A DNA stretch of 64,000 nt from Candidatus Palauibacter rhopaloidicola (GTDB lineage: Bacteria; Gemmatimonadota; Gemmatimonadetes; Palauibacterales; Palauibacteraceae). Positions within the stretch are counted from its first letter, which is position 1. Each line of letters begins with the position of its first letter. Position numbers and translations under genes: made by a program. The stretch is from the NCBI GenBank assembly GCA_026914155.1, contig JAPPGH010000017.1, positions 62,001-126,000 of the forward strand. Direction: 5' to 3'. Of this stretch, positions 54,226 through 63,865 are shown in pieces. The notes under the pieces are model-generated. The model saw nothing but the letters and a program-made list of their open reading frames with translations, had not been told where the DNA came from and searched no databases.

Positions 54226-54399
54226 CTGTCGTCCATTCCCCTCATTTTGGGGGGTATGAGGGTGCCTCGAAGACCTTGCCCACACGCCCTTATCCTCTTA
54301 TGGCACAGCGTGTTGATACCGAGTACACACCTCCCCGTAGGATCGTTTCCAGGCGGCGGAACCACCGGCGCCATGGACATCACCCCGGGAGGGAGGAAC

Positions 54400-57300
54400 A
54401 TGCTCACGCTGCGCTGCTTCGGCGAAGTCGCGGCCTCGGATGCCCGCGGGGCGAGGATCACGCTGCGGTCACGGAAGCACCTGGGGATCCTGCTCTATCT
54501 CGTGGCGCACCCTGGAACCGTTCACATGCGGGAGACGCTCGCCGACCTGCTCTGGGATAGTCGCGACCGGAAGGCGCGACACTCGCTCAGCCAGGCGCTC
54601 TACGACATCCGGTCGTCCATCGGTCCGGTGATCGCCGTGGACGCCAGCACGGTCCGGCTCGTGCCGCAGAGGGTCACCTACGAACTCGATGCCTTCGAAC
54701 GAGCGTTCCAGGCCGGGGACCACGAGACCGTCATCGACCTGTACCGGGGCGACTTCGCCCCCGGCCTGCTCAACATGGGAGCCGACGAGTTCGAGCGCTG
54801 GCTGGACGGCGAACGGGAGCGTTGTCGCGTTCTGGTCGCCATGGCGCTCAAGAACGTGCAACAGGCGGCCGAGGAAAGAGGCGACTGGGACCAGACGTGC
54901 CTGGCGGCGCTCCGGCTCGTGAGACAAAACGAGTTCGACGAACACGCGCACAGCACCCTCATGCGTGCGTTATGCATGAAGGGCGATCACGCCTCCGCCC
55001 TCGCCTACTACCGGGCGTTGGAGAAGTGCGGTTGGGTGGCCAGCGCCACCACGCTGACGGAAACGGCGGCGTGGGCCCGGAGTCAGCTCGACGCCGCACC
55101 TCCCGTCGTCCGCGAGCGCCACGAACCGCCGATGTCTGATCGAGGAAGCGAGTTCCGCCAACTCAGCGTCGCTCTCCGTTCGTCCCGCGCCGCGCCCGTA
55201 CGGCTCGTCCTTGCCGGCGAGCGCGGTCTTGGGCGGGAGGATGTCGTACGGAACTTCGCCGGACTCGTAAACAGCGGTGGAGGGTTGGTGCGGTGGCTTC
55301 CACGCGATATTGCGGAGAAGCCAGAGAAGCTGGCCTCCGAGTTGAGCCGACACCCGGGGAAGACCCGGCTCATCGTCATCAGAGCCGATGTTCGGGATTG
55401 GACCACCATCGATGAGGTCATGCGGACCGCGGATCTTTCGGGCGCCATGGTGGTCGGCTTCTCGAACCCGGAGGTGGCTCGCCAGGCGGAAGCGGCGCGT
55501 CTGGTCGACTTCGTGATCCCCTTCGATCCACTCACCACCGACGCCTGCGCGGCGTCGCTCCGGGCCACCGAGAGGAGCTGCAGTCCTCCCCAGGCGGTCG
55601 AGAGTGCGAGGCTCTCGGGAGGGAACCCGGCGCTGGCTCGAGCCATCCTCAGGGCATGGGTGCGTCACGGCTTCAGTCCCGCGACCGCGAGCGACCGGGA
55701 AGCGGGCGGGCGACTGGCCTACGAGCGATCCGCCGAAGTTCGGTCGTTCGTCGGCGATCAACTGGAGATCCTCTCGCTCCCGGAGGAACGACTGGCGACG
55801 ACGCTGGCGCTGCTCACGCCCCCTGCGCGCGCACATGCCGAATCGATCGTGGCCGGACATTCGAGTCGGGATGCCCTTGAAGGGCTCCGGGCCAAGGGGT
55901 GGTTGCACTCCGAGACCGGCCAATGGACGGTGAGCCGCCCCCTCGCCGGCGCCGTGCTCGCGTGGAATCTGCGGCCGGACGAGAGCACGAAGGTACACCT
56001 GGCAGCGGCCCGAACCCTCGAGAACGCAGGTCTTGGCGCGCGGGCGGCGGCTGCCTCCGAGTTCGCCGCGGCCGGAGAGTCCTCTCGTGCCTTCAGCGTG
56101 GCCTGCGAGGCGGCGCAGGAGGCTTTGCGGAGAGGCCGGTCTCCGGTAGCGGGCCAGGCGGCGGCGTTGGCGTTCGAGCATGCCACAGCCGGTGCCGACC
56201 GCCTGCGCTCCGGTTTCCTCCTCTCCGAGGCCGAGTTTCAGCGGGGACGGTTTCGGCGGGCCATGAGCGTGCTGCACCAGATTGCCGCGGTCGCGGACAC
56301 CGGGAACGACCTGAGCCGCGTCCAACTGGCGCTGGCGCGGGCGGACCTGGCGACGGGAGACCGGCTCCCGACGGGCCTGCACCGACAGAATCTGGAGGAA
56401 GCTCACAGGCACGCGACCGAACCGGCGCTCCTCCGCGCGCTGAACCTGCAGATGGCCGTACTCGAGGCGACCGACACCGCGCCTCGGCACAACGGGAAGC
56501 CCGGTTTCGACAGGATCCGCGCGCATCTCCGCGGGATCGTCCGGGAGGACGCCGACTACGCGGGCGTCTGGTGCGACGCATTTCGGCTCCTCTTCCATCG
56601 GGTTGGAGGTCGAAGCGGTCTCGCGGAGGCTCGCCTGGTGCTCGAAACCTACCGCCACGGGCTCGGCCGGCTCGGCTACGAGGGCCTCAGGGCCGCCACC
56701 GCCGCGGAGTTCTGGGTGGCCATGCGAGGGGCGCGTCTTCACGACGCTCTCCAGTTGCTGGAAGACACCTCCGAGACCCTCGACGAGAACCGGCACGAGT
56801 CCGCGAACCTCAACAACCTCGGCGCGGTCCTGCTCGAACTCGGCAACTTCGAGCGGGCGCTCGATGAACTCGGTCGCTCCCGCGAGATGGACGAGGCGCT
56901 TGAAACCCCGCCCGAAGCCCGGGCCTACGCCCTGCTGAATCAGGCGCAGTGCCTCTTCTTCAAGGGAGACTACGCTCGTTGCCGACACTACATGGAGCCG
57001 TTACTCCGGCGTCCCGGGCATACGGGTCAACATCCGTTCGGGGCGCAGGCATGGGCACTCACCGGCCTCCTGGCCATGACCGATGACGATCAGCGCGAGG
57101 TAGACGCCTGTCTCGAGTTGCTGGGGGATGGTTCCAATGGCGTCGGAGAGAACGACCTCTACCTGGTGACCTGGTTTCGCGCCGCGGCGATGGGGACTCG
57201 CGATCGCCGGGAAACCGTCGCCGAGCTCATCGAAGCCGCCGATCACACGGCTGAGATCGACAGGCTGAGCGCGGAGAAGCTGAGAGTGCTGGCCGGCACC

Positions 57301-57408
57301 TATTCCCCACCCAACGGACCCGGCGATCAGCGCGAGGCCCGCAGCTTCCTGCGGTCGGCCGGAGCCTCGTGGTTCGTGCGCTTCGCACACAACTGGCGGT
57401 GCGCGTAA
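54400..57408 (+). CDS. SARP-like transcriptional activator: BTAD domain, degenerate STAND NTPase, TPR-like C-terminus
   Basis: LTLRCFGEVAASDARGARITLRSRKHLGILLYLVAHPGTVHMRETLADLLWDSRDRKARHSLSQALYDIR; SD gggagg; degenerate P-loop AGERGLGREDV. Confidence 0.85.
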   Translation: MLTLRCFGEVAASDARGARITLRSRKHLGILLYLVAHPGTVHMRETLADLLWDSRDRKARHSLSQALYDIRSSIGPVIAVDASTVRLVPQRVTYELDAFERAFQAGDHETVIDLYRGDFAPGLLNMGADEFERWLDGERERCRVLVAMALKNVQQAAEERGDWDQTCLAALRLVRQNEFDEHAHSTLMRALCMKGDHASALAYYRALEKCGWVASATTLTETAAWARSQLDAAPPVVRERHEPPMSDRGSEFRQLSVALRSSRAAPVRLVLAGERGLGREDVVRNFAGLVNSGGGLVRWLPRDIAEKPEKLASELSRHPGKTRLIVIRADVRDWTTIDEVMRTADLSGAMVVGFSNPEVARQAEAARLVDFVIPFDPLTTDACAASLRATERSCSPPQAVESARLSGGNPALARAILRAWVRHGFSPATASDREAGGRLAYERSAEVRSFVGDQLEILSLPEERLATTLALLTPPARAHAESIVAGHSSRDALEGLRAKGWLHSETGQWTVSRPLAGAVLAWNLRPDESTKVHLAAARTLENAGLGARAAAASEFAAAGESSRAFSVACEAAQEALRRGRSPVAGQAAALAFEHATAGADRLRSGFLLSEAEFQRGRFRRAMSVLHQIAAVADTGNDLSRVQLALARADLATGDRLPTGLHRQNLEEAHRHATEPALLRALNLQMAVLEATDTAPRHNGKPGFDRIRAHLRGIVREDADYAGVWCDAFRLLFHRVGGRSGLAEARLVLETYRHGLGRLGYEGLRAATAAEFWVAMRGARLHDALQLLEDTSETLDENRHESANLNNLGAVLLELGNFERALDELGRSREMDEALETPPEARAYALLNQAQCLFFKGDYARCRHYMEPLLRRPGHTGQHPFGAQAWALTGLLAMTDDDQREVDACLELLGDGSNGVGENDLYLVTWFRAAAMGTRDRRETVAELIEAADHTAEIDRLSAEKLRVLAGTYSPPNGPGDQREARSFLRSAGASWFVRFAHNWRCA

Positions 57409-57479
57409 ACGCCGGCTTCCCGCTACGCGTGATCCGGATCTTCCCGCCCGCGTCCGAATCGGACCCCCTCGAACGTTGC

Positions 57480-57523
57480 TACTACGTACCTAGTTGACAG
57501 CGGCGCCCCGGCGCGTTTACGCT
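57480..57523 (+). promoter_or_regulatory. Candidate BlaI/MecI-type operator TACTACGTACCTAGTT overlapping a TTGACA -35, with a TACGCT -10-like hexamer
   Basis: 12 of 16 positions match the mec-type box TACTACATATGTAGTA (hand alignment); TTGACA 57494-57499; 18 bp spacer to TACGCT. Confidence 0.55.
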
Positions 57524-57620
57524 GATTCGGGAACGACGCTTCGCCCGGTCCGCCAGCGTCTCGATGGCGGCCGGTCGGGGCAGGCGACGCTGATGGTTCG
57601 GGAGGGAAAGGACCAAACTC

Positions 57621-57992
57621 GTGGAGATCAAGTTCACCACGCGGGAACTCGACCTCATGGCGGTGCTGTGGGAGAGAGGGGCCTCGACCGTCGCGGAGGT
57701 GCAGGAACGCCTCGGCGACGAGTTGGCCTACACCACCGTGCTCACGATCCTCCGGACGCTGGAGGAGAAGGGGTACGTGGCGCACACCCAGGAGGGGAAA
57801 GCCTACCGCTATCACACGCTCGTGGGGCGCGACTGCGCCGGCGCGAGCGCCGTGCGGCGACTGGTTCAGAAGATGTTCCAGGGGTCGCCCGAACTGCTGC
57901 TCACGCACCTCGTCTCGAACCGGGCGCTCTCGAAAGAGGACCTTGAGAACCTGCGCGGCCTCGTGGACGAACGCCTCAGCTCGAAGGAGTAG
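57621..57992 (+). CDS. BlaI/MecI/CopY-family transcriptional repressor
   Basis: FTTRELDLMAVLWERGASTVAEVQERLGDELAYTTVLTILRTLEEKGYVAHTQEGKAYRYHTLV. Confidence 0.94.
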   Translation: MEIKFTTRELDLMAVLWERGASTVAEVQERLGDELAYTTVLTILRTLEEKGYVAHTQEGKAYRYHTLVGRDCAGASAVRRLVQKMFQGSPELLLTHLVSNRALSKEDLENLRGLVDERLSSKE

Positions 57993-57996
57993 GGAC

Positions 57997-59943
57997 ATGG
58001 TCATCGCCTGGATCGGATATTGCCTGTTGATTTCGGGACTCCTGGCCCTGGCGGCCTTCGCCTCGGAGCGGGCGCTCGGCCACTTCCGGAAGCCGGTGCG
58101 CTGGGCGTGGTTCGCGGCGATCGCCGGGTCCGTGACGGTGCCCGTGGTCGCCTTCTTCGCGCCCGGACTCCTTCCCGGCTTCGGGGTGTCGCCGGCGGCG
58201 CCGGCGGCCGGGGTCGGCGGTCTGACGGTCGCAACCGCGACGCCGGAACTGCCCGCAGCGGCCGCGGCGGCCGGTAGAGCTTTCGATGCGGCGGCGGTCG
58301 GCACGGTGCTGGGGTGGGGCTGGTTGCTCCTGGCCGCCGCCATGATCGGCTATCTCGGGCGCGTGTACGGCCGGCTGCGATCCGAGATGCGGACGTGGAA
58401 GCCGGGCCGCGTGGCGGGATCCCCGGTCATGATCTCCGACGAGCGGGGACCGGCGGTCGTCGGGATCCGGCGCTCGGTCGTGGTAATGCCGAGGTGGATC
58501 CCCGAACTCGAGGACCGGCTGCTCCGCCTCGTCTTCCTCCACGAGCGAGAGCATCAGCGCGCCGGCGACCATCGGCTCTTCGCGGCGGCGGTCACCGCGC
58601 TCGTCGTGATGCCTTGGAACCCGGTCGTGTGGTGGCAGGTGTCCCGGCTGCGGCTCGCGATCGAGTTCGACTGCGACCGCCGCGTGCTAGCGCGTGGCGA
58701 ATCGCGGCGCGACTACGCGGACGCCCTCATCACTGTCGGGAGCCGCGTCTCCGGGTCGCTGCTCGCCGCGGCCGCCTTCGCCGAACGGAAGCCGGCCGTG
58801 GAACGGCGCCTGCGCCGCATGACCGAGCCGCCCGCCAACATGCGCCTGCTGCGAACGCTGGGCGCCTCGGGGCTGGCCATGGTCGCCGTCCTCTTTGTCC
58901 TCGGCTGCCCCGGACCCGAGAGCGGCATGAACGCGCCGGAACCCCCCGCCGCGACCGTGACCCCGCCCTCCGAAGCCAGTGAATGGGTGCCCCCGCCGAT
59001 TCCCGGCGACGAGGCCGTGGGGCGCGGCGACCGGCCGAGCTTCATCGTGTACGACCGGCCTCCGGTGCTTCAGAACGCGACGGAGGTTTCGGACGCTCTG
59101 GTGCAGGCCTATCCGCCGGACCTGAAGGAAGAGGGCATCGGCGGCCGAGTCGAGATCTGGCTGTACATCGACACGTCCGGCATGGTCCGGAACACGGAGA
59201 TCAAAGAGAGCAGCGGCAGCGACGTCCTGGACGCCGCCGCCGCGGAAGTCGCCGCGGCGATGCGCTTCGAGCCCGCGATGAACCGCGACCAGCCGACCGA
59301 CGTCTGGGTCACCCAGTTCATCACCTTCCAGGTTGCGGCCGATGCGGACACTCCCCCCGCACGTAGAGTCTCCGTAGCCGACGAGGGCGATCCCCTCGTC
59401 ATCGTCGACGGCGTCATCCAATCCGAGGGCACGAGCCTGGGAGACCTCCAGGCCCTCGATATCGACCACGTCGAGATCATCAAGGGTCCGAAGGCCATCG
59501 AGTTGTACGGCGACCGGGCCCAAAACGGAGTGATCGAAATCACAACCAAGGGCGGCGCCGCCGACAGCGATGCTCCGCCCGAGGGGGTCGCCGCGGCCGC
59601 GGATCTCCTGATCGGAGCCGCCAGTGCAATGGACGCTCGGGGGACGGTCGCGGAGGGCCGCGCTCGCGCGCTCATCGATGGTCGGCGGAGCATCATCGTG
59701 AGCGGCTACATCGGCGACGATGGTACGCCCCGTCGCGTGGTGAGCACCGACGATCCACTCATCATCGTCGACGGCATCATCAAGGCGGACGACGTGACGC
59801 TCGAAGACGTCAGCTTCGGCAAGCTCGATGTCGCCGACGTCGAGATCATCAAGGGAGAACAGGCGATCGAACTGTACGGCGAGCGCGCCCGGGGCGGAGT
59901 GATCCACATCACGACGAAGAAGAGCAGCGGCAAGGAGGAGTAG
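57997..59943 (+). CDS. M56 (BlaR1-like) membrane metallopeptidase with TonB C-terminal-like domain and two tandem TonB-receptor-plug-like modules
   Basis: FLHEREHQRAGDHRLF (HExxH); IGGRVEIWLYIDTSGMVRNTEIKESSGSDVLDAAAAEVAAAMRFEPA; PLVIVDGVIQ...VEIIKGPKAIELYGDRAQNGVIEITTK and PLIIVDGIIK...VEIIKGEQAIELYGERARGGVIHITTK. Confidence 0.88.
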   Translation: MVIAWIGYCLLISGLLALAAFASERALGHFRKPVRWAWFAAIAGSVTVPVVAFFAPGLLPGFGVSPAAPAAGVGGLTVATATPELPAAAAAAGRAFDAAAVGTVLGWGWLLLAAAMIGYLGRVYGRLRSEMRTWKPGRVAGSPVMISDERGPAVVGIRRSVVVMPRWIPELEDRLLRLVFLHEREHQRAGDHRLFAAAVTALVVMPWNPVVWWQVSRLRLAIEFDCDRRVLARGESRRDYADALITVGSRVSGSLLAAAAFAERKPAVERRLRRMTEPPANMRLLRTLGASGLAMVAVLFVLGCPGPESGMNAPEPPAATVTPPSEASEWVPPPIPGDEAVGRGDRPSFIVYDRPPVLQNATEVSDALVQAYPPDLKEEGIGGRVEIWLYIDTSGMVRNTEIKESSGSDVLDAAAAEVAAAMRFEPAMNRDQPTDVWVTQFITFQVAADADTPPARRVSVADEGDPLVIVDGVIQSEGTSLGDLQALDIDHVEIIKGPKAIELYGDRAQNGVIEITTKGGAADSDAPPEGVAAAADLLIGAASAMDARGTVAEGRARALIDGRRSIIVSGYIGDDGTPRRVVSTDDPLIIVDGIIKADDVTLEDVSFGKLDVADVEIIKGEQAIELYGERARGGVIHITTKKSSGKEE

Positions 59944-59947
59944 CGAC

Positions 59948-61267
59948 ATGGTCATCGTCTGGATTGGATACTGCCTGCTGATTTCGGGACTCCTCGCCCT
60001 GGCCGCCTTCGCGACCCAGCGGGCGCTGGGTCACTTCAGGAAGCCCGTGCGCTGGGGCTGGTTCGCGGCGGTCGTCGGCTCGGTGGCGCTCCCGTTCGCG
60101 GCGTTTCTCGCTCCCGGCCTCCTCCCGGGACTCGGCGCGTCGCCGTGGGCCCCTCTCATTGAGTTGAGTGAAGCGGTGGTCGTGACCTCCGCGCCCGCCG
60201 CGGCCGAGGCGGCGGAACCCGCGGCGTGGTTCGCCGCCGGCGCGCCTAGCGTGTTCGCGGGTGGGGTCTGGGCATTGCTCGTCGCGGGGATGCTCTTCCA
60301 CCTCGGGCGGGCGTACCGGCGCTTGCGGTCGGAGATGCGCACGTGGACGCCGGGTCGCGTCCTCGGATCGCAGGTCATGATCGCGGACGACCGGGGGCCG
60401 GCCGTGGTCGGAATCCGACGCCCCGTCGTCGTGATGCCGAGGTGGATCCCCGAACTCGACGACCGGCTGTTGCGCCTGGTCTTCCTGCACGAGCGCGAAC
60501 ACCAGCGCGCCGGCGACCACCGTCTCTTCGCCGTGGCGGTCGCAGCCCTCGTGCTGATGCCGTGGAACCTCTTCCTGTGGTGGCAGCTCTCCCGGCTGCG
60601 GCTGGCGATCGAGTTCGACTGCGACCGTCGCGTCCTGGAGCGGGGCGAGTCCCCGCGCGACTACGCGGACGCCCTCATCACCGTGGGCGGCCGTGTCTCC
60701 GCGCCCCTGCTGGCCGCGGCCGCCTTCGCCGAGCGCAAGCCGGCCGTGGAGCGGCGGCTGCGCCGCATGACCGAACCGCTGGCCCGGCTCCGCATTCCGA
60801 GAACCCTGGGAGCTACGGGCGTGGCGGCGCTCGCCATCATCCTCGTCCTGGGCACCCCCCAGCCCGAGGCCCCGATGGATGCTCCCGCGCCCGCGGCCGA
60901 TGTCGATATCGAGGAGAACCCGCTGGTCCGCCTGGCGGAGAGAGCCTCGCAGGCTGATCGGCCGACATTCGTCGCGTACGACACCCCCCCGGTTCTCCAG
61001 AACACGGCCGAGATCCAGCAGGTACTCGAGAGAGCCTATCCGACGGACCTCAGGGATGCGGGCATCGGCGGCCGGGTCGAACTGTGGCTGTACGTCGACC
61101 TGACCGGCGCCGTGGTCAACCATGAGATCAAGACGAGCAGCGACAACGACGCGCTCGACCGCGCCGCTGCGGAAGTCGCCCAGCAGATGCGGTTCCGCCC
61201 CGCTAGCAATCAGGGTGAGCCGACCGCCGTCTGGGTCTCCCAGTGGGTGTCCTTCCACGTGATCTAG
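59948..61267 (+). CDS. M56 (BlaR1-like) membrane metallopeptidase with TonB C-terminal-like domain (paralogue of preceding gene)
   Basis: MVIVWIGYCLLISGLLALAAFATQRALGHFRKPVRWGWF; FLHEREHQRAGDHRLF; IGGRVELWLYVDLTGAVVNHEIKTSS. Confidence 0.9.
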   Translation: MVIVWIGYCLLISGLLALAAFATQRALGHFRKPVRWGWFAAVVGSVALPFAAFLAPGLLPGLGASPWAPLIELSEAVVVTSAPAAAEAAEPAAWFAAGAPSVFAGGVWALLVAGMLFHLGRAYRRLRSEMRTWTPGRVLGSQVMIADDRGPAVVGIRRPVVVMPRWIPELDDRLLRLVFLHEREHQRAGDHRLFAVAVAALVLMPWNLFLWWQLSRLRLAIEFDCDRRVLERGESPRDYADALITVGGRVSAPLLAAAAFAERKPAVERRLRRMTEPLARLRIPRTLGATGVAALAIILVLGTPQPEAPMDAPAPAADVDIEENPLVRLAERASQADRPTFVAYDTPPVLQNTAEIQQVLERAYPTDLRDAGIGGRVELWLYVDLTGAVVNHEIKTSSDNDALDRAAAEVAQQMRFRPASNQGEPTAVWVSQWVSFHVI

Positions 61268-61276
61268 CGAGCGAGA

Positions 61277-61331: not shown

Positions 61332-62444
61332 ATGTCAACGGTATCTCGTTGTACCTCCATCTTCTTGACGCTGGCCGTTACTTCATGCGCCGAGCCGGCA
61401 TCGGATCGATCCAGCACCGGTACGCAGTCCGCTGTCATGATCGACCGCCGCATTGATGCGGAAACCTCCTGGATTCCGTCGGTGCGGATTGGCTTAGCGG
61501 AAGGTCCGGCGGAGTATCTGTTCTTCCGGGCTTCGGATGGCTTCCGGACTGAGGCCGGGGAGTTATATGTGGCGAACTCCGGAACGGGCGAGATCCGTGT
61601 CTATTCGGACACAGGGCAGTTTCTGTATTCCTTTGGTCAAATGGGCGAAGGCCCTGGGGAGTTCAGGAATCTGCGATCGATCGAGGTTACCGATGATGGT
61701 TCCGTCCTGGCCTTGGACGCGCAGGGAGGCCGCATATCGATCTTTGACGAGACAGGGGGGTATCGTCGCTCGTTCTCTGTCGCTTTGGCGGACGCCCACC
61801 AGCAACCGAGCCGCATGTGGGTCGGACCCGCTTCGGAAGTCTTCGTTACGGTTACGAGTGGTTTGGACCCACGGCAGATGAGTGTTGCGCGGGACTCGTT
61901 GCGGGTGCTCCGTGTTGACACCGAACGGCCCGATCCGGAGGTGCTTTTTTCGGTTGGTGACATGTGGTGGGAGAGTTCGGCGGGTGCGACGGGCTATCGT
62001 ATGCAAGCGGCGATGGCAGGGCCGGCCGCGGCGATAACCTCACGGGGTGGAACGTTCGCCACGAGTTCCAATGACAGGCCGGCGATCGAGATTCGGGATG
62101 CGCGAGGAGGGCTGCTTGCAACGTGGGCGGACCCGCACCACCCTCGCGGCGAGCCGAGTGGAGCCGGCGAGGTGGAGTCGCTTGAAGAGGCCAACCAGCG
62201 AGGCCGGTTTTACGCACAGCTGCGTTGGAGTGCCAGCGGCGACCACCTTTGGATTGGAGATGCCGGGTTACCCAATGACGCGACTCGTATTTGGACAATC
62301 GTTGATCGGGACGGCCGCCCGGTTGGGAGGACGTCGCTCCCGCTGGCAGCAAATCTGTGGCAGGTCGGCCGAGATTTCTTGCTGCTCAAGACCGTGGATG
62401 ATTTTGGAGTCGAGCGCGTCGAGGTGTGGAGGCCAGATCCGTAG
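61332..62444 (+). CDS. 6-bladed beta-propeller lipoprotein
   Basis: LTLAVTSCAEP lipobox; FGQMGEGPGEFRNLRSIEVTDDGSVLALDAQGGRISIFDETG. Confidence 0.78.
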   Translation: MSTVSRCTSIFLTLAVTSCAEPASDRSSTGTQSAVMIDRRIDAETSWIPSVRIGLAEGPAEYLFFRASDGFRTEAGELYVANSGTGEIRVYSDTGQFLYSFGQMGEGPGEFRNLRSIEVTDDGSVLALDAQGGRISIFDETGGYRRSFSVALADAHQQPSRMWVGPASEVFVTVTSGLDPRQMSVARDSLRVLRVDTERPDPEVLFSVGDMWWESSAGATGYRMQAAMAGPAAAITSRGGTFATSSNDRPAIEIRDARGGLLATWADPHHPRGEPSGAGEVESLEEANQRGRFYAQLRWSASGDHLWIGDAGLPNDATRIWTIVDRDGRPVGRTSLPLAANLWQVGRDFLLLKTVDDFGVERVEVWRPDP

Positions 62445-62542
62445 CAGACGATGAGGCGACCGCCCTGCGCCCCGCGGGCAACCATCCGCGGGGCGACGGG
62501 TTCTCTGGGAGCGGACGACGGCACCGCACCCGGAGGGAACCC

Positions 62543-63865
62543 ATGATCCAACCAACCTGGCGTCATTCCCTGTCCGGGGCGGGCCTCTGTCTCCTGGTTG
62601 CGTGCGGGGGTGATGGCGCCGGCGGGGCGCCCGCCGGCGGGTCGGGGGCCATGGACGGTCCCGATTTCACGATCGCTCCGGCGTTTGAATCACGCTGGGT
62701 CGCCGGCGCCCTGGATGGGGAAGACTGGGAGGTCTTCGGGTCCATCGCCGACCTGGTCTTCAACGAGGCGGGCGATCTCTTCATCCTGGACGAACAGGCG
62801 GGGCACGTCGTCGCGTTCGACCGGGACGGGGTCCACCTTCGAACCATCTCCCGGCAGGGCGAAGGCCCCGGTGAACTGACCGACCCCGAATCGATATCCC
62901 TGCTCGCCGATGGTCGTCTTGCCGTGTTCGACGCCGGGCGCAGCGGGATTCAGCTCTTCACGCCGGAGGGCGAATACGCGGAATCTGCGCCCTTCGATCC
63001 GACCCAGGGCGCGCCCAGGGGCGTGGGCGCATGGCTCTCCGACGGGAGCATCATCACAAACCGCGAGTTCGTGGTCAGCGGAACGGCGGAGGCCATGTCG
63101 GTAAGCAGTTCCGTCGGCGGCACGGGAGACGCACCGGGGCGCCCCATCGCCCGCTACCGGCCGGACGGGACTCGCGAGCTGCTCTACACGGCCTGGGAGC
63201 CGCCGCCGCCCACCGGAGACGCGGCGGAAGCCAGCGGTGGCAGCTTTTCCTTCAATCTCAGCCCCGTGAGAGCGTTCGACCCGGGGCTGCATTTCGCCGC
63301 GCTATCAGACGGGCGACTCGCCGTCGTCGACTCCTCGGGATACCGGATCAGGCTGATCGGCGAGGACGGTGCCGTGAGTGAGGTGCTGGAACGGTCGCTC
63401 ACGCCGACCCCGGTGACGAACGCCGTCCGGGATGCGGAGCGGGAGCGCCGGCTGGCCGAGCTGGAGGGGAATCGGAGCCCGACGACACTCTCCATCGCGG
63501 GGCGCCCGGACATCCGTATGCCGGACGACTTCGCGAGCCAGTTGCAAGAAGCTCTCAGGGCCCGCATCGAAGAGATGACGTTCGCCGAGGTCATCCCCGC
63601 AATCGAAGCGTTGGCCGTGGACTTCGACGATCGGCTGTGGGTGGCGCGGACCCCGCTACCTGACGAGGAGGGACCGATCGACATCGTGACGCCCGACGCC
63701 CGCTACCTGGGCACGATCCAGCCAGGGGGGCTCCGCATCCCGGACGCGTTCGGCCCGGACGGCCTCATGGCCTACGTCGACACGCACGATCTCGGTTACC
63801 CGATCGTGCGCGTCGTCCAACTGGCCCCGGATCCCCAACTGCGGACGGAGAACCGGACTCCGTAG
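62543..63865 (+). CDS. 6-bladed beta-propeller lipoprotein
   Basis: GLCLLVACGGDG lipobox; ISRQGEGPGELTDPESISLLADGRLAVFDAGRSGIQLFTPEG; ALAVDFDDRLWVAR. Confidence 0.8.
   Translation: MIQPTWRHSLSGAGLCLLVACGGDGAGGAPAGGSGAMDGPDFTIAPAFESRWVAGALDGEDWEVFGSIADLVFNEAGDLFILDEQAGHVVAFDRDGVHLRTISRQGEGPGELTDPESISLLADGRLAVFDAGRSGIQLFTPEGEYAESAPFDPTQGAPRGVGAWLSDGSIITNREFVVSGTAEAMSVSSSVGGTGDAPGRPIARYRPDGTRELLYTAWEPPPPTGDAAEASGGSFSFNLSPVRAFDPGLHFAALSDGRLAVVDSSGYRIRLIGEDGAVSEVLERSLTPTPVTNAVRDAERERRLAELEGNRSPTTLSIAGRPDIRMPDDFASQLQEALRARIEEMTFAEVIPAIEALAVDFDDRLWVARTPLPDEEGPIDIVTPDARYLGTIQPGGLRIPDAFGPDGLMAYVDTHDLGYPIVRVVQLAPDPQLRTENRTP

Follow-up and report, generated by a model that had tools for sequence, protein, structure and literature searches.

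SusC-type half-plug modules on a BlaI-linked M56 peptidase of Palauibacter

A single intact gene in the stretch of Candidatus Palauibacter rhopaloidicola DNA analysed here (64,000 nucleotides; the window) joins an M56 metalloprotease with an intact zinc motif, a TonB C-terminal domain (TonB_C) and two modules derived from the plug of SusC-type outer-membrane transporters. It follows a gene for a BlaI-type repressor, and a conserved operator-like site lies at the promoter. The familiar relative of this arrangement is BlaR1, through which other bacteria turn on antibiotic-resistance genes. Its outer domain binds beta-lactams and governs an M56 protease, by which the repressor BlaI is cut directly (PMC9834060). 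We propose that the Palauibacter protein may be a BlaR1/MecR1-like signalling protease in which the beta-lactam sensor has been replaced by plug-derived, probably protein-binding modules, and that gain or loss of contact with the usual binding partner of a SusC plug would switch the cleavage of BlaI. We give this proposal a little under an even chance of being right.

The operon and its promoter

The gene at 57997-59943 is the middle member of a tight operon of three: the BlaI repressor, the M56-TonB_C-half-plug protein and a plug-less M56-TonB_C protein (Table 1). Among PDB structures, the product of the first gene matches MecI (E 2e-8). The second is preceded by a GGAG ribosome-binding site and runs as one open frame carrying the Pfam domains M56, TonB_C and Plug. 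An earlier note, made from the letters of this DNA, placed two plug-like modules inside one peptidase protein. The peptidase is intact; the description needs the correction that TonB_C stands between it and the modules. The same note held that no barrel follows. This is so: the 648-residue protein stops six residues past module 2, with no 22-strand barrel after the modules, and the next gene begins 4 bases beyond the stop codon.

Table 1. Features of the BlaI-M56 operon (positions are those of the window)
Feature	Position	Strand	Evidence or remark
Operator-like dyad CTACTACGTACCTAGT	57479..57494	+	conserved block; putative BlaI-binding site
-35-like TTGACA	57494-57499		first base is the last base of the dyad
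BlaI/MecI-type repressor (Penicillinase_R)	57621..57992	+	PF03965 E 9.4e-31
M56 peptidase - TonB_C - two half-plug modules, 648 aa	57997..59943	+	reading frame, Pfam, Foldseek
M56 metalloprotease core, residues 150-272	58444..58812	+	PF05569 E 9.4e-20
HEREH zinc motif of the M56 core	58540-58554	+
Last transmembrane helix (residues 284-303) and lipobox-like VLGC, Cys304	58846..58908	+
TonB C-terminal domain, residues 371-445	59107..59331	+	PF03544 E 3.3e-15; Foldseek
Half-plug module 1, residues 465-520	59389..59556	+	PF07715 positions 56-107; AF2; Foldseek
Variable linker between modules, residues 521-583, type A	59557..59745	+
Half-plug module 2, residues 586-642	59752..59922	+	PF07715 positions 54-107, E 0.002 alone
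Second M56 - TonB_C protein, no plug modules	59948..61267	+	PF05569 E 5.2e-18, PF03544 E 4.9e-14

The protease core scores 71.4 bits against PF05569 (cut-off 31). H182, E183, H186 and E223 are almost invariant in the M56 alignment (A1), and HExxH...E is kept. The TonB_C region of the full-length AF2 model matches the TonB C-terminal domain 6i97_D (Foldseek, TM 0.72 by target length). It is anchored by the M56 domain through a linker of about 65 residues; the single N-terminal anchor helix and the proline-rich spanning region of TonB are both absent. Helices modelled at residues 2-30, 35-54, 98-131 and 285-302 fit the four-helix membrane layout of M56 proteins with a predicted orientation, in a model that is weak overall (mean pLDDT 56.4, about 50 in the plug region) and in which the packing of the modules is unreadable. 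The full-length model matches BlaR1 (8exq_A, probability 1.00), the TonB C-terminal domain and SusC. Pfam finds no transpeptidase or penicillin-binding sensor domain in the protein, which scores 43.1 bits against the NCBIfam family blaR1_generic, where the cut-off is 400.

The promoter region holds a near-palindrome, CTACTACGTACCTAGT, that runs into the hexamer TTGACA. The block (CTACTAYGTRYCTAGTTGACAGCG) is kept in 10 relatives within an otherwise variable spacer, and the chance expectation of the dyad in the window is 0.02 at up to 3 mismatches. Exact copies of CTACTACGTACCTAGT occur in the genome only before this cassette and before its second copy on contig C45; self-regulation is therefore the simplest reading. 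No operator-like site was found near the SusC cluster of the same genome, described below, and so direct regulation of SusC is not indicated. A promoter scan gave no candidate that passed the full two-hexamer test.

On its upstream side the operon is flanked by a SARP-like regulator with a BTAD domain (54247-57408), which is conserved in relatives, and on its downstream side by two 6-bladed beta-propeller (DUF5128) proteins (61332-63865).

The half-plug modules and the resident SusC plugs

The two plug-like peptides lie in one frame of one gene, within 3-4 bases of where the earlier note had put them. PLVIVDG...TTKGG occupies residues 466-520 (59392-59556) and PLIIVDG...TTKK residues 587-642 (59755-59922); the two modules are identical at 33 of 54 residues (61%). 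Across the whole protein the Pfam Plug family PF07715 is matched in two stretches with E 8.6e-10 and 39.5 bits. Against a gathering cut-off of 23.9, module 1 alone passes (E 8.4e-7, 29.9 bits) and module 2 alone falls below (19.1 bits). The SusC/RagA signature TIGR04057 (NCBIfam) scores 56.4 bits (E 1.9e-15; cut-off 46.2). Run against the PDB, a profile built from the modules retrieves SusC/RagA chains (E 2e-13) and nothing unrelated. The plug resemblance of both peptides is far beyond chance.

The SusC-like plug core proposed at the outset is thus upheld by both families, for the second half of the plug only. A complete plug has about 107 positions; each module covers positions ~54-107 of these. 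The N-terminal half, where the TonB box lies, is missing from both.

Is the plug fold retained in so short a piece? The full-length model was too weak to say, and we therefore built a single-module AF2 model from 18 stacked module sequences. It has the order beta-alpha-beta-alpha-beta with a mean pLDDT of 77.6. The similarity to the plug fold on which the earlier reading hung is present: the top 26 Foldseek matches in the PDB are all TonB-dependent transporters, led by SusC of the levan utilisome (8a9y_A, TM 0.68, probability 1.00), with modest E-values (from 0.017 upwards) that reflect a query of only 67 residues. Sequence and predicted fold together support a derivation of the modules from SusC/Cir plugs.

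Within the same genome the nearest plugs belong to three adjacent SusC-like genes (G000:C60:206-222 kb), with scores of about 100 bits; the transporter that comes next reaches 50. The cluster adjoins genes that start like SusD lipoproteins, one of them without a Pfam match. Module 1 shares 74% identity with the plugs of this cluster, whereas its identity to the M56 modules found in other lineages does not exceed 56%; it also has lineage-specific residues in common with the cluster (DGVIQSEG..L.D..ALDIDHVEI). As a near-copy of three resident plugs, it lends some support to the earlier idea that the modules are mimics. In a tree of half-plugs, the Palauibacter M56 modules group with the SusC-cluster plugs and a stand-alone Palauibacter half-plug lipoprotein (SH-aLRT 91), and a module from genome G053 groups with transporters of family f5 (support 98). 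A tree constrained to hold the M56 modules together in a single clade carries a cost of 34 log units, a borderline result (p-AU 0.056) from 63 columns. The groupings, the 74% identity and this cost point to separate recruitment of modules from resident transporters, or to continuing matching with them; we regard the pattern as suggestive. The cassette and the SusC cluster do not strictly occur together. Their association is loose: genome G129 has an M56 protein with three modules and nothing that matches the cluster, and the cassette is missing from G124 and G089, both of which have SusC relatives.

These observations bear on a rival reading, that the half-plug is a generic beta-alpha-beta-alpha-beta domain shuffled among the envelope proteins of Gemmatimonadota and that on the M56 protein it serves as a spacer or oligomerisation domain, silent on transporters. 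Many other small lipoproteins of the phylum do carry half-plugs or barrel-less whole plugs, an alpha-2-macroglobulin protein of Bacteroidota bears a whole or near-whole one, and the number and type of modules differ between close relatives. A free-standing old domain would not, however, need 74% identity and lineage-specific residues in common with one SusC cluster. We consider this reading somewhat unlikely, and it is the most serious of the alternatives to a plug-based sensor.

Other plugs without barrels turned up in the same searches. Small lipoproteins with a whole or nearly whole plug are found at seven loci (L115, L116, L117, L119, L120, L121 and L126), with several per genome in family f3. 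A 327-residue protein (L111:1976-2956) combines a carboxypeptidase-regulatory domain with a complete plug and an extra half-plug; its gene adjoins a TonB-dependent transporter. The alpha-2-macroglobulin family protein, with a near-complete plug (E 1.7e-11), is encoded on plasmid pAT2 of Aureibacter tunicatorum (L132).

Relatives and the second cassette copy

The cassette, with its genes and domains in the same order, is conserved among Palauibacter relatives. Of 17 genomes that represent the genus, 14 contain matches to the tandem-plug region (E up to 1e-20), part of these matches being SusC plugs. The architecture of an M56 protease with half-plugs extends to at least six Gemmatimonadota genera (g1, g12, g14, g32, g38 and g42, in families f1, f3 and f5). 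Outside the genus, in g12, g14, g32, g38 and g42 of families f3 and f5, the M56 proteins carry one or two half-plugs and lack TonB_C; a further metagenome-assembled genome (MAG; L009) also has an M56 half-plug protein without TonB_C. The earlier note had called the modules an array and proposed a count in homologues. Plug-bearing M56 relatives hold one, two or three modules, within the genus usually two, and the word is apt. G129 supplies the three; L006 has one, having lost module 2, and with it most of the gene that follows, to a deletion. When 117 M56 domains are placed in a tree, the plug-bearing and the TonB_C-bearing proteins without exception share one clade (SH-aLRT 99). The architecture is recurrent, and the proteins are a family. 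M56-plug proteins may be present in Bacteroidota as well; in a check that covered plasmid records, the one Bacteroidota M56 protein read (Spirosoma) has no plug. At one locus (L113, G053:C132:5500-13500), four consecutive M56 genes each carry one or two half-plugs, the first gene being a fragment.

What is the partner of the modules? The earlier note saw the array as serving the TonB_C of the second M56 protein. In this proposal the modules mimic a partner for that domain, or for the protein's own TonB_C, so that a TonB-plug pair forms within the operon. TonB_C and plug modules do co-occur in the same protein and the same operon. The plug-bearing M56 proteins of five other genera nevertheless lack TonB_C, and TonB_C in turn stands without plugs in M56 proteins carrying three or four tandem copies (L047, L048 and L049, in genomes G086, G045 and G099), where TonB_C arrays appear as the sensor arms. 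Since TonB_C is absent from most plug-M56 lineages and the plug half with the TonB box is missing, TonB-plug pairing cannot be the general mechanism, and we judge the proposal very unlikely. A BlaR1-type sensor arm is the better frame, because every plug-M56 gene with upstream sequence follows a BlaI-type repressor: in 14 of 14 representative loci, a BlaI-type gene lies directly upstream on the same strand.

The second copy of the cassette (L085, G000:C45:1-13000) was compared with window positions 57311-61275. It is 100% identical over 57468 to about 59360 and again over 59960 to about 60770, and only about 50-60% identical across the linker and module 2. In relatives, the sequence that flanks it upstream is part of a different locus. 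The copy may stem from a recent duplication in which a module was exchanged, or two strains may have been joined in a chimeric assembly. The linkers fall into two unrelated types, type A in the window, L001, L002 and L007, and type B in L003, L004, L005, L008 and the C45 copy. Linker and module 2 types cut across the relatedness of the remaining gene: L007 and L008 have identical module 1 sequences, yet one has a type A and the other a type B module 2. Between the C45 copy and L057, module 2 has dN 0 and dS 0.02, whereas dS in the rest of the gene is 0.14-0.38. Recombination therefore seems to have exchanged the module 2 segment. Modules are under purifying selection in most pairs compared: dN/dS is 0.18-0.54 in all informative pairs but one, the exception being module 2 of the window and L002 (1.06, from few changes).

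Could the gene itself be an artefact, a chimeric contig or annotation that fuses a fragment of a TonB-dependent transporter to an M56 gene? The MAG has 6% contamination, and the C45 copy is identical up to the plugs and then differs, at another locus. Selection acts on the modules, however, and independently assembled relatives show the same gene and domain order. We reject this explanation as extremely improbable.

A possible sensor arm and the cysteine after the last helix

In the mechanism that we favour, the sensor slot of a BlaR1-like protease would be filled by a periplasmic arm consisting of TonB_C and two SusC-type C-terminal half-plugs. The half-plugs would have come from the lineage's own outer-membrane transporters and would act as protein-binding modules, their target being the usual partner of the SusC plug: an empty or misassembled SusC barrel, or a plug-handling factor. 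Gain or loss of this contact would switch the M56 protease, which would then cut BlaI and relieve repression of its own operon.

Comparison with known systems shows how much of this is familiar. Like BlaR1/MecR1-BlaI/MecI of Staphylococcus and Bacillus, the operon encodes an M56 protease with HExxH and a BlaI-family repressor, has an operator-like dyad at its promoter and yields a protease whose C-terminal domain is predicted to lie outside the cytoplasm; it differs in having TonB_C and plug halves where those proteins have a penicillin-binding sensor. The modules share sequence and predicted fold with the C-terminal plug half of SusC/RagA transporters (PF07715, TIGR04056/TIGR04057), whereas on the M56 protein they stand in tandem, joined to an inner-membrane protease, with neither barrel nor N-terminal plug half. 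In the Fec system (FecA-FecR-FecI), which uses a transporter STN domain and a sigma/anti-sigma pair, the periplasmic part of a transporter informs a membrane protein that controls transcription. Our reading would have the periplasmic part of an outer-membrane transporter inform a membrane-bound transcription controller in a similar way, but here the plug piece sits on the receiver, and no STN domain or sigma factor was found in the BlaI-M56 operon. The M56-TonB_C proteins of Gemmatimonadota belong to the same M56 clade; unlike the protein described here, they have no plug modules and most lack the lipobox cysteine discussed below.

BlaI-M56 pairs are widespread, and their ligands outside beta-lactam sensing are mostly unknown. 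A sensor slot filled by pieces of transporters that are numerous in the phylum offers a concrete, testable guess as to what is sensed. If the guess is true, signals from the outer membrane would reach a repressor in the cytoplasm with no sigma factor and no two-component system involved, and orphan plug fragments, as a class, would acquire a role. Our literature search returned nothing relevant on M56 proteins with a plug or TonB_C, although InterPro may list the architecture without a study. The finding suggests a form of M56-BlaI signalling, new as far as that search reached, in which a half-plug sensor arm reports on channels to genes.

How the arm is attached raises a further question. The last transmembrane helix ends in VLGC, which fits the lipoprotein pattern of a hydrophobic helix followed by [LVIA][ASTVIL][AGS]C, and charged residues and a hydrophobic stretch precede Cys304. 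A lipobox-like cysteine ([LVIAG][LVIAT][AG]C) follows the last helix directly in 26 of 26 plug-bearing M56 proteins and in 15 of 90 others (Fisher p 1e-15, uncorrected for kinship; kinship-corrected pairs are too few for significance). In the plug-less second M56 protein of the operon, LGT replaces LGC and the cysteine is lost. In four g32 genomes the gene after the plug-M56 gene encodes a stand-alone lipoprotein. It bears one half-plug and shares 47-55% identity with the stretch of the M56 protein that runs from the last helix to the end (E about 1e-45). Helix and cysteine thus seem able to act as an N-terminal lipoprotein signal, and by sequence Cys304 is a candidate for lipid modification.

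One could go further and take the arm for a lipoprotein made from within the protease, helix and Cys304 forming a type II signal and the arm freed by LspA being active or resetting the sensor. The cysteine's distribution and surroundings and the copied g32 lipoprotein speak for this, as does the linker after the last helix of BlaR1, which is likewise cut by a signal peptidase, SpsB (PMC9834060). Set against these are the shortage of kinship-corrected pairs and the other roles that a cysteine at a helix end can serve. We hold this account to be distinctly unlikely; it fits within the BlaR1-like sensor explanation. A version in which the last helix doubles as a lipoprotein signal, Lgt and LspA free a lipid-anchored arm, and the arm pairs with or travels to SusC, coupling the state of nutrient uptake to BlaI cleavage, seems to us unlikely, if slightly less so. 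Under an internal lipobox, the neighbouring stand-alone lipoprotein would be an arm cut loose by gene duplication. The literature search found nothing on internal lipoboxes; the correlation of lipobox and plug provides, in its own right, a testable idea on the processing of such sensors.

Throughout Palauibacter there is also a stand-alone lipoprotein that carries a single half-plug (L084:2206-2673, at G000:C6:19.7 kb, and L127-L130). Its half-plug is closest to the SusC cluster, and its gene lies about 100 kb from the M56 cassette.
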